The notes beneath the pieces were generated by a model. It made no database searches. It was not told the origin of the DNA and was given only the letters and a program-made list of their open reading frames with translations. DNA of 35,631 nt, from IMG/VR virus record IMGVR_UViG_3300028388_001959, positions 1-35,631 of that record; one strand, given 5' to 3'. Positions 22,509-35,631 of this stretch are shown piece after piece. The DNA is from a virus. The translations under genes were made by a program, and so were the position numbers. Every line of letters begins with the position of its first letter. Positions within the stretch are counted from its first letter, which is position 1.

Positions 22509-22647
22509 CGCAACGTCGCTCGCTGCGCCTGGTTTTCGGCACTTCCCGCGCGCACAGCGGCGCCCGCGCCCGCCGCCGCACTGCCAGCATCGCCCGCCGC
22601 CGATCCTTACTATACAGTGCAGGCAAGCGCGGGAAACCCGTACTTGC

Positions 22648-22683
22648 GGACAGGTGCCGATATCGGGGCCTGTCCGGCCCCGT
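22648..22683 (+). promoter_or_regulatory. Two competing hairpins
   Basis: CGGACAGG (22648-22655) can pair with CCTGTCCG (22670-22677), while CGGGGCC (22665-22671) can pair with GGCCCCG (22677-22683). The two stems share bases, so only one can form at a time. There is no U-run, so the role, if any, in termination or regulation is uncertain. Confidence 0.4.
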
Positions 22684-22787
22684 CCCTGGCGTCGGGGCCT
22701 CCTGGCGCCGCTGCGCCCGCCTGCCGCATACCCGGTCCACCGCCCGAAAATAACCTGTAACTCGTTGCAAATGCAGCACTTACAAAC

Positions 22788-22815
22788 TTGACACAAAGTT
22801 ACATTCGTATATTAT
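22788..22815 (+). promoter_or_regulatory. Early promoter, sigma70 type
   Basis: A perfect -35 box TTGACA lies at 22788-22793, a 16-base spacer follows, then TATTAT at 22810-22815 (one mismatch to TATAAT) in a strongly AT-rich setting. Transcription would start near 22822 and read the early genes from 23027 onward. This is the clearest promoter in the window. Confidence 0.8.
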
Positions 22816-23026: not shown

Positions 23027-23428
23027 ATGACGACCAAGAAGACCAGCGCCCGCCGCAGCAACGCCGCCTCGAAGACGACCACGACGCCGAAGCAGAAGCA
23101 GGCCGAAGCGCACGCGGCGAACAACGAGCCGAAGCCGATCACTGCCGCCATGGCTGACCGCCTCGTTGCGATGGGAATCATGACGGCCGAACAGCGCGCC
23201 GAGCACGAAGCCGCTGGCTTGATTCGCAGCAAGCGCACGCCGTTCTTCGACCACGAGACTGAGAAGGTGGCTCGTGCGATCTACGAGCGGGTCGCGAACT
23301 TCAACGCGAGCAGTGAGGAGTACACCATCACGATGCGCGTGACCCGGATTCGCGGCGAGGCGAAGGCCAGCAAGCAACTCACGGCGAAGGTGGTCGGGCT
23401 CGACAGCAACGAGGGCGACGACGAGTAG
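23027..23428 (+). CDS. First early protein, unknown function
   Basis: The 133-residue product is the first gene after the strong promoter. Residues 1-35 are Lys/Thr/Ala-rich and probably disordered. A predicted helix-turn follows (ITAAMADRLVAMGIMTAEQRAEHEAAG), then a beta-like region EYTITMRVTRIRG and a short acidic tail. I recognise no family. First-early genes often counter host defences or take over host processes, but nothing here shows this directly. No strong site precedes the ATG; AAGGA lies about 11 bases upstream. Confidence 0.6.
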   Translation: MTTKKTSARRSNAASKTTTTPKQKQAEAHAANNEPKPITAAMADRLVAMGIMTAEQRAEHEAAGLIRSKRTPFFDHETEKVARAIYERVANFNASSEEYTITMRVTRIRGEAKASKQLTAKVVGLDSNEGDDE

Positions 23429-31953: not shown

Positions 31954-32297
31954 GCGGCATCCGATCACGACGCAAGGGAGCGAACGGTGAGCGCGAGCTT
32001 GTGAACTTGCTGAAAGCGAAGGGTCTGAACGCGCGACGCATCGCGATGCTTCAGACGAACCGTGACAACAACGACCCGGACGTGGACGTTGCCGATCACC
32101 CGGAGCTGCACATTGAGTGCAAGCGCGGCAAGAAGGTGAACGTTCACGCCGCGATGCGACAGGCGATCAAGGCAAGCACAGAACGAAGCGTGCCTTGCGT
32201 GATGTATCGAAACGACGGTGACGAATGGCTCGCAATCCTGCGGGTCACAGACCTCATCGACTACATGAACGGAGCGAACGATGACGACGAAGCCTGA
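31950..32297 (+). CDS. PDDEXK resolvase-like nuclease
   Basis: The 115-residue protein fits the small archaeal/phage Holliday-junction resolvase type of PDDEXK nuclease. It shows KGANGEREL with Glu16, a PD-like region DPDVDV with Asp44 and Asp46, and IECKRGKK with Glu56 and Lys58, giving the E...D...ExK set. After it, VHAAMRQAIKAS and VPCVMYRNDGDEWLAILR are typical of the fold. It would cut branched DNA before or during packaging, fitting the SbcDC-like gene. The start overlaps the previous gene by 4 bases. Confidence 0.82.
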   Translation: MSGIRSRRKGANGERELVNLLKAKGLNARRIAMLQTNRDNNDPDVDVADHPELHIECKRGKKVNVHAAMRQAIKASTERSVPCVMYRNDGDEWLAILRVTDLIDYMNGANDDDEA

Positions 32298-32472
32298 CAC
32301 TGAAACCCGCGACACGACCATGATTCACGTGCGCGTGCCTTCGGACCTTCGCAAGAAGCTGGCGATCATCGCCGCTGCGGAGGAGACGAGCATGACGGCG
32401 ATCATCAACGGTCTGATCGAAAACTATGTGCGCGTCACGATGGAAGTCTCGATGCGGAAGGCCGCCGAATGA
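32281..32472 (+). CDS. Ribbon-helix-helix (Arc-type) protein
   Basis: The 63-residue protein has the ribbon-helix-helix pattern: a strand TMIHVRVPSDLRKKL with alternating residues at 14-20, a helix KKLAIIAAAEE, a turn, then a helix TSMTAIINGLIENYVRVT. Such proteins dimerise and bind operators through the strand, so it is a candidate transcription regulator of the phage. The ATG sits in the end of the resolvase-like gene behind CGGAGCGAACG, the same extended site as other early genes. Confidence 0.75.
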   Translation: MTTKPDTETRDTTMIHVRVPSDLRKKLAIIAAAEETSMTAIINGLIENYVRVTMEVSMRKAAE

Positions 32473-32473
32473 C

Positions 32474-33412
32474 ATGGCTCAACGAGGCTACGTTCGGCAA
32501 CGTCGCGGCGAGCTGGACCATCACGCGTACTTCGGCGAGCGACCTTCAGCCTACCTCACCTATTCGCACGTCAGACTTCTTGCTGACCACCGAACGGGAG
32601 TGGCTGAGGTGAACGCGAAGAGTATCGCGCACGGAACTGGCCTGTCGGTGCGTGTTGTACGAGCCGACCTGAGGTGGCTCACAAGCGAAGACGAGGTCAC
32701 GGGTCGGCCTGCATACCTGCGCGTAATCGAGCGCGGGAATCAGCACGTCGTGGGCGCCGTCGCTGTAGTGAAATATAGCGATGGTACATCTGTGCCGTTA
32801 CGTTCAAACGTCAGTGCTCAGGAGGGTGCTGTGACGTCTGGAGGTAACAGCACAGAGGGTGCTGTGACGTTTGAGGGTAACAGCACGACCAGTGCTGTGA
32901 CGCCTAAGGGTAACAGCACGCAAGCCAACGCCAACAACGGCAGCGACTTGCAGCGCCTAAGAAGAAGGAAGAAGAAGAAGAAGGAGAAGAATCCTTCTAC
33001 GAAGTACCCTAGTCCACTGGAAGGCAGCGGCAGCGCGAACGGCGGCGAAGGATTCTCTCTACCGATCGGAGTTGTCCTGAGTGCAGGCGAGCACACTCGT
33101 GCTTTCGCGAGTGAGTTGGCGCTTGGAATCCATCGCGAAGCGCGCTTCTCGAAAGTGATGGCCGAGTTCCTCGTGAACGAAGTCGTACCAGGGTTCAATC
33201 AACGACGCAGGAAGGACGGAGCGACATGCGACGACTTCATCCGATACGCACGAACGCGTATGTCCAAGCTGATCGAACACGAGGCGCGAACGGGCAAGAT
33301 CGCAATCGACGGTTCACTTGTGCGACCAGGGTCGCCCCGTTTCGTCGAGTTCGTAGACGAGCAAGTCACCCGACCTTGGAGGCGGGTGCGAGATTCGTTG
33401 CGGCGGGTATGA
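32474..33412 (+). CDS. Replication initiator-like protein (lambda O-type layout)
   Basis: The 312-residue protein has an N-terminal winged-helix-like domain (about 25-85: LTYSHVRLLADHRTG, then AKSIAHGTGLSVRVVRADLRWLTSEDEV), a low-complexity middle with three copies of an 11-residue repeat of the form xxAVTxxGNST (about 117-149), a Lys-rich stretch (RRRKKKKKEK), and a helical C-terminal domain (about 205-300). The DNA of the repeat is a set of 33-bp iterons, as in the lambda O gene, where the initiator binds its own gene. No helicase loader gene follows. The layout supports initiation of replication. The family match is by layout, not by a diagnostic motif. Confidence 0.65.
   Translation: MAQRGYVRQRRGELDHHAYFGERPSAYLTYSHVRLLADHRTGVAEVNAKSIAHGTGLSVRVVRADLRWLTSEDEVTGRPAYLRVIERGNQHVVGAVAVVKYSDGTSVPLRSNVSAQEGAVTSGGNSTEGAVTFEGNSTTSAVTPKGNSTQANANNGSDLQRLRRRKKKKKEKNPSTKYPSPLEGSGSANGGEGFSLPIGVVLSAGEHTRAFASELALGIHREARFSKVMAEFLVNEVVPGFNQRRRKDGATCDDFIRYARTRMSKLIEHEARTGKIAIDGSLVRPGSPRFVEFVDEQVTRPWRRVRDSLRRV
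32826..32998 (+). other. Candidate replication origin: three 33-bp iterons and purine tract
   Basis: GTGCTGTGACG occurs at 32826, 32859 and 32892, and GGTAACAGCAC at 32843, 32876 and 32909, always 33 bases apart. Each unit is thus an inverted repeat (GTGCTGT...ACAGCAC). A weaker match, GTGCCGTTACG, lies just upstream (32792). A purine-rich stretch follows (about 32958-32991, GAAGAAG-type), which would melt readily. Iterons beside an easily melted tract inside an initiator gene is the lambda ori arrangement. Confidence 0.7.
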
Positions 33413-34402: not shown

Positions 34403-35050
34403 ATGGCGAAGAAAATTGCCTGGCGTGGAAGCGAAACGCTGAAAACGATGCTTCGCCCGATCGACAAGATCGCCGAGGACCCTCGCAACGTTCGGCTTCA
34501 CAGCGAGCGGAACATCGAGGCGATCAAGGCATCGCTCGCCGGATTCTCGCAGGTGAAGAACGTCGTCGTGCACACGTTCGCCGGCGATGAGGTTCCTACG
34601 GTCATCGCGGGCAACGGAACGATCCAAGCCGCTCGCGCGCTTGGCTGGACGCACATCGCGTGCAACGATTTCGGTGGAACCGACGACGAGGCGCGAGCCT
34701 TCGCGGTCGCTGACAATCGCACGTCCGAGCTGGCCGAATGGGATGAGGGCGCGCTGGCTGAGACGCTCGACGACCTGCGGAACATCGACATGCTTGGCGC
34801 GACAGGCTTCAACGAAGACGAGCTGAACGTCATGCTTGGCGAGTTCGACGTCTCTGAAGTCGAGGCGCCTGAGATCCCCGACGGCGACCGTTCCGAGTAT
34901 CAACAGATGACGTTCACGCTGCACGACACGCAGGTCGAGATCGTGAAGGCCGCCATCGAGAAAGCGATTGAGGCCGGACCGTTCATCGGCCCGAACGAGA
35001 GCAAGAACGGCAACGCGATCGAACGCATCGCTGGAGCGTACCTTGCCTGA
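34403..35050 (+). CDS. ParB/Srx-like phage protein
   Basis: The 215-residue protein has the ParB N-terminal fold: IDKIAEDPRNVRLHSERNIEAIKASLAGF near 20-48, VPTVIAGNGTIQAARALGW near 65-83 (GNGT where GHGR or GNGR is common), and AFAVADNRTSELAEWDEGALAETL near 100-123. Its end (QMTFTLHDTQVEIVKAAIEKA, then a late N-A-I-E-R-I helix) resembles the tail of phage ParB-methylase fusions, but no methylase domain is present. It overlaps the Mom-like A start by 8 bases, so it may work with the Mom-like pair. ATG 34403 follows GGAG by six bases; TTG 34400 is a less likely start. Confidence 0.78.
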   Translation: MAKKIAWRGSETLKTMLRPIDKIAEDPRNVRLHSERNIEAIKASLAGFSQVKNVVVHTFAGDEVPTVIAGNGTIQAARALGWTHIACNDFGGTDDEARAFAVADNRTSELAEWDEGALAETLDDLRNIDMLGATGFNEDELNVMLGEFDVSEVEAPEIPDGDRSEYQQMTFTLHDTQVEIVKAAIEKAIEAGPFIGPNESKNGNAIERIAGAYLA

Positions 35051-35631
35051 ATACGTCGCGAATCCGCAGCTTGATGAGTGTCGTGTCGCGCCGATCGCGC
35101 TGGCCGATGCGAAGCGGATCTGCGTCGCGAAGCACTACATGAAAACTTGGCCTCAGGGAGTGACCCACGCGTTCGGCCTCATGTACGAGGGCAAGTGCGT
35201 CGGCATCATGGTCCTAGGTCGTTCGCCCACGACGGCGGGCAAGGTCGCGAAGTACTGCAACAAGATCGAGCCCACGCAGTTCATCGAGTTGCAACGGACG
35301 TGGATCAGCGACGCCATGAAGCAGAACGCAGAGTCGTGGATGATGTCGCGTGTGATGCGTGCGCTGAAGGAGCTTGGCGTGTGGATCGTCATCACGCACA
35401 GCGGCGGCTGTAAGGATGACGTCGGCTTCATCTTTCAAGCGTCCGGATGGCTGTACTTCGGTTGCGAGCCTTGCAGTGACTTCTATCTGACGGCGAAGGG
35501 CGAGTACAAGAACGTCGGTTCGGCAATGCGCTACGGTCGCGTGCCGAAGGAAGTCGTGAAGTGCGGCCTGCAAGCTGCGGGCGAGTACGCGTACGGACCT
35601 GGCGAAATCGTTCATGCCCGTCGTCATCACT
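35043..35631 (+). CDS. Mom-like DNA-modification protein A, N-terminal part (cut by window end)
   Basis: This is the 5' part of the gene completed at 1-209. A TTG start overlaps the ParB-like stop and follows GGAG by six bases; no in-frame ATG lies nearby. The first 196 residues carry Mom-family marks: HYMKTWPQG (31-39), the EGKCVGIMVLG strand (49-59), LQRTW (83-87), KQNAESW (93-99) followed by the helix MMSRVMRALKELG, THSGG (118-122) and FQASGW (131-136). These line up with HYSGK, LNRM, PRNSES, SFADG and YRASGF of Mom-like B, so the two are divergent relatives. Mu Mom modifies adenine in DNA to block restriction. A similar role is inferred here; the reaction is not known. Confidence 0.85.
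   Translation, partial: MPEYVANPQLDECRVAPIALADAKRICVAKHYMKTWPQGVTHAFGLMYEGKCVGIMVLGRSPTTAGKVAKYCNKIEPTQFIELQRTWISDAMKQNAESWMMSRVMRALKELGVWIVITHSGGCKDDVGFIFQASGWLYFGCEPCSDFYLTAKGEYKNVGSAMRYGRVPKEVVKCGLQAAGEYAYGPGEIVHARRHH
35533..35631. repeat. Terminal direct repeat, right copy
   Basis: This copy is identical to 1-99. It allows the two halves of Mom-like gene A to be joined in frame. Confidence 0.95.

Follow-up and report, generated by a model that had tools for sequence, protein, structure and literature searches.

A probable lambda-type replication origin within the candidate initiator gene of a phage whose initiator belongs to no recognisable family

Some bacteriophages carry their replication origin inside the gene of the protein that binds it. 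The best described case is the lambda origin in gene O, with counterparts in gene 18 of P22 and in Stx phages. Lambda iterons are nearly perfect inverted repeats that bind dimers of the O protein, and the adjacent 40-bp A+T-rich region, with almost all purines on one strand, is opened (PMC5043065, PMC7466680). In SPP1, oriL likewise lies within gene 38, which encodes the replisome organizer gp38; as published, direct repeats within the gene of the origin-binding protein are accompanied by an AT-rich unwinding element (PMC6316719). Here we analyse an array of inverted repeats in a virus record of 35,631 bases (the window, that is, the whole stretch of DNA examined), which by its sequence probably forms part of a lambda-type origin within a candidate initiator gene (Table 1).

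The genome has a GC content of ~62%, and its + strand codes nearly all genes. A 99-bp direct repeat at its ends (1-99 and 35533-35631) indicates that it is apparently complete, and circular or terminally redundant. The left part contains genes for the small and large terminase, portal, major head protein and tape measure; the right part, continuing across the junction, contains those for an SbcCD-like fusion, a RusA-like resolvase, a ribbon-helix-helix (RHH) protein, the candidate initiator, a ParB-like protein and a Mom-type modification protein. The virus is a bacteriophage and has no close sequenced relatives. The 1161-aa ORF at 26666-30151 matches SbcD-like (N-terminal phosphoesterase) and SbcC-like (AAA/coiled-coil) PHROGs, and is an apparent SbcD-SbcC fusion encoded by a phage. 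The ParB-like gene (34403-35050; phrog_620, E 9e-31) lies ~1 kb downstream of the initiator gene, and together with the gene of the Mom-family DNA modification protein (29-1018; PF25680, E 5e-51) it possibly forms one modification module.

Table 1. Coordinates in the window of the putative origin, the gene that contains it and the sites discussed with it.
Feature	Position	Strand	Remarks
Ribbon-helix-helix (CopG/Arc-like) protein gene	32281..32472	+	just upstream of candidate initiator; alternative binder of the array
Candidate replication initiator gene	32474..33412	+	ORF, 312 aa from ATG 32474; array in frame
N-terminal domain, probably winged helix-turn-helix, putatively DNA-binding	32516..32790	+	weak profile matches
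Iteron 0, degenerate, inverted	32792..32819	-	inverted repeat with one good half-site, GTGCCGTTAC
Iteron 1, 28-bp dyad	32826..32853	+	
Iteron 2, 28-bp dyad	32859..32886	+	
Iteron 3, 28-bp dyad	32892..32919	+	
Candidate DNA-unwinding element	32957..32996	+	purine tract within a 40-mer of very low stability (second in the genome)
C-terminal all-helical domain, putatively recruiting helicase or loader	33032..33409	+	AlphaFold pLDDT 70, five helices
Putative early promoter, TTGACA-16-TATTAT	22788..22815	+	near-consensus sigma-70; most AT-rich and least stable site of the genome

The array consists of three gapless units with an exact period of 33 bp (32822-32854, 32855-32887 and 32888-32920), in frame within the initiator gene, and is the top-scoring tandem array of the record (TRF score 131). 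Each unit contains a 28-bp dyad, GTGCTGTGAC-N8-GTAACAGCAC, whose 10-bp arms are perfect over the outer 7 bp and have one internal mismatch in every copy. This agrees with the original prediction, which had described three exact-period units, each an inverted repeat GTGCTGT...ACAGCAC, encoding a regular linker peptide xxAVTxxGNST; the translations are indeed EGAVTSGGNST, EGAVTFEGNST and TSAVTPKGNST. The count of three was incomplete, since a fourth, degenerate unit in inverted orientation had been missed: it is identical at 22/28 positions to the reverse complement of unit 2 (the best match elsewhere, in 520-bp segments, reaches 19/28) and encodes a different peptide. The array is thus one of four units, whose starts are 34, 33 and 33 bp apart. 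Searches of IMG/VR for the iteron pattern, with fixed or variable spacer, returned nothing. Solitary exact half-sites, GTCACAGCAC, are found at 725-734, in the Mom-type gene, and at 1132-1141, in the small terminase gene; a third-order Markov model predicts ~0.1 half-sites per whole genome, versus these two outside the array.

Changes among the three direct units are confined to the spacer and to the bases between dyads: 10 of the 11 non-arm columns vary, compared with none of the 22 arm columns (Fisher p=1.2e-7). Third codon positions within the arms are fixed in all three units (GCT, GTG, ACG, and GGT before AAC), and two of these codons, GCT and GGT, are minority codons in the genome (12% and 13%). 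The sparing of the arms points to selection on the nucleic acid and not on the peptide alone.

The purine-rich tract that had been predicted to follow the array was also found. Thirty-nine bases past the last unit starts an all-purine tract of 33 nt (32959-32991). No other pure run of purines or pyrimidines in the genome is longer than 13 nt. Of all 40-mers in the genome, only the one at 22,779 is less stable than the one at 32957, which lies in the top 0.04% for instability. Arginines in the tract are encoded by AGA AGA AGG, while AGR makes up 6% of the arginine codons of the genome; the use of such rare codons suggests selection on the nucleotides of the tract, beyond any need for a basic linker. 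The locus combines a repeated array of likely binding sites inside a putative initiator coding sequence with an A+T-rich, strand-asymmetric candidate unwinding tract beside it, as seen in in-gene origins.

It is this in-gene architecture that suggests a role for the gene in initiation. An in-frame ATG upstream, at 32426, is a less likely start because the ORF would then overlap the preceding gene. The N-terminal domain had been described as winged-helix-like. Profile matches to winged-helix proteins were sub-significant, to the AspA wHTH (E 0.6-0.9) and to a MarR-type PHROG (E 0.13), but agree in covering the same residues; a single-sequence AlphaFold model of the domain was unusable (pLDDT 35). 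Together with these matches, the order of elements seen by inspection (helix, recognition helix, wing) makes a winged helix plausible. For the C-terminal domain, a fold search with the model gave no match.

Scans against Pfam, PHROGs and NCBIfam placed the candidate initiator in no family, and no relatives were found in IMG/VR with the whole protein or either domain, nor among GTDB genomes, INPHARED phages and PLSDB plasmids. Neither the protein nor anything else in the genome matches PF04492 (Phage_rep_O), although in the same scan lambda O and P22 gp18 scored 123 and 130 bits; the protein accordingly falls outside the lambda O family. BLAST and profile comparison (profiles of three sequences only) detected no similarity to lambda O. 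Nor does it belong with the DnaD-like helicase loaders, since no DnaD/DnaB_2-type C-terminal domain was found with PHROG or Pfam profiles. At the level of sequence, the candidate initiator is an orphan that can be assigned to no recognisable family and is not detectably related to lambda O.

We analysed lambda with the same script as a control. Its iterons occupy 0.39-0.48 of gene O, as compared with 0.34-0.47 of the initiator gene for the array described here; the longest purine run of its genome (18 nt at 39138) lies 3' of the iterons, and the 40-mer that follows them is among the 0.7% least stable. P22 gave weaker values than lambda on these measures. In both loci, four inverted-repeat iterons sit midway along the initiator gene (a candidate in our phage) of ~900 bp. 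They are followed by a tract of low stability with purines on the coding strand, and they encode the stretch between the N-terminal DNA-binding domain (presumed for our protein) and the C-terminal domain. The loci differ in the iterons, which in lambda are 18-19 bp long at intervals of 20-24 bp, compared with a 28-bp dyad of other sequence at a 33-bp period and one unit inverted. The phage described here also differs in that its initiator does not match PF04492 and that no P or DnaB-like gene was recognised downstream. The resemblance to lambda O, with different and shorter iterons in lambda, had been proposed from the start, and the reading of the locus as a lambda-like origin inside an initiator gene is supported by the arm-only conservation, the tract 3' of the array and the lambda control. 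The arrangement is also like that of SPP1 oriL; unlike SPP1, which encodes its own loader and helicase, this phage has no gene recognised for either.

As comparators we used thirteen IMG/VR contigs gathered by terminase similarity alone (23-28% identity). Three of the thirteen have a tandem array inside a gene assigned by profile to replication initiation. In L004 this is a PF04492 gene (E 2e-24) with direct repeats of ~19 bp. In L011 and L014, palindromic in-frame arrays lie in genes for DnaD-like helicase loaders (30-185 in L011 and 61-215 in L014; GTTCTTAAAACAAGAAC; CTTCCCAAAAAGGGAAG), with an unstable tract close on the 3' side (top 0.4% and top 0.03%, respectively). In all three, as in our phage, the array encodes a repetitive linker. 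Their units are shorter, however, and their proteins have recognised domains (DnaD-like or PF04492); profile comparison with the three C-termini (three sequences only) gave no match to the candidate initiator. Given how common the in-gene layout is among these comparators, the layout alone does not make this phage exceptional.

The array is probably the cis-acting element of a theta-type origin that lies within the gene for its own initiator. The N-terminal domains of initiator dimers would contact the 28-bp dyads (half-site GTGCTGTKAC), which follow one another at about three turns of the helix. Once assembled, the complex would strain and open the adjoining purine-rich tract of low stability, and the helical C-terminal domain would bring in the replicative helicase of the host or the loader of that helicase. 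In addition, the linker between the two domains, flexible at first and then basic, is encoded by the repeats and the tract. We infer binding, melting and helicase loading at the array from this arrangement; none of the genes scanned was recognised as encoding a helicase, a loader or a primase, which suggests recruitment of the helicase from the host.

A start of replication near 22,800 had been named as the alternative to the array. This site holds a near-consensus promoter (11/12 consensus positions) in front of the early operon and has no repeat array; it was rejected as an origin. No further promoter-like site was seen between 22 kb and the genome end, and the sequence at 22.8 kb reads as the start of an early operon whose transcription would pass through the array. 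A GC-rich stretch with a palindrome (22647-22676) precedes the promoter. The minimum of cumulative GC skew, which had been expected at the array, is at 23,254 after detrending; with nearly all genes on one strand, GC skew says little about the origin, and we did not accept it as evidence.

The main rival to an in-gene origin is that the array serves as a regulatory or partition (centromere-like) site for the upstream RHH or the downstream ParB-like protein. Genes of both flank the initiator gene, and phased palindromes would suit proteins of either type. The array, however, lies mid-gene and away from any promoter, the only promoter-like site beyond 22 kb being that at 22,788. A partition system would also lack a recognised ParA among the genes scanned, and would leave the unstable purine tract beside the array unexplained. 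In phages, ParB-like proteins of similar size are often found alongside genes for DNA modification, and the presence of a Mom gene in this genome likewise speaks against a partition role. Altogether we regard this rival as improbable. It is still less probable that the dyads act as stems of stacked mRNA hairpins which control, for example, how the initiator mRNA is translated or degraded. The region 32780-32930 does fold strongly (-74 kcal/mol, z -6.4), but lambda iterons, which are DNA sites, fold alike (z -7.3), so the fold score does not discriminate; furthermore, a G-A mismatch in the stem is retained without compensation in every unit, and the purine tract again has no place in this explanation.

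The remaining possibility, a recent in-frame tandem duplication that yields a repetitive linker and has no role as DNA, would account for the exact 33-bp period, which preserves the frame and encodes a regular peptide. The changes among units, however, wholly avoid the arms, synonymous positions included; the inverted unit encodes a different peptide, and the peptide has no need of dyad symmetry. We consider a coding-only duplication very unlikely, the least probable of these explanations.

The locus, read as an in-gene origin, is ordinary in its architecture and new in its parts, the initiator being an orphan. It is conceivable, though we would not favour it, that the protein is the first member to be recognised of an initiator family unrelated to lambda O, gp38 and the DnaD-type proteins, that it reached an in-gene origin of iterons and purine tract independently, and that it makes direct contact with the host helicase, with no loader from the phage. 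The finding extends the in-gene layout to a phage whose initiator fits no known family. It also suggests a signature, free of homology and based on sequence only, for locating origins in uncultured phages: in-frame dyads in the middle of a gene, conserved in their arms only, followed by a tract that no other in the genome exceeds in purine asymmetry and hardly any in instability. The recurrence of this layout in lambda, in DnaD-like genes and in this phage prompts a testable question: what makes origins settle in the part of the initiator gene that encodes the linker?
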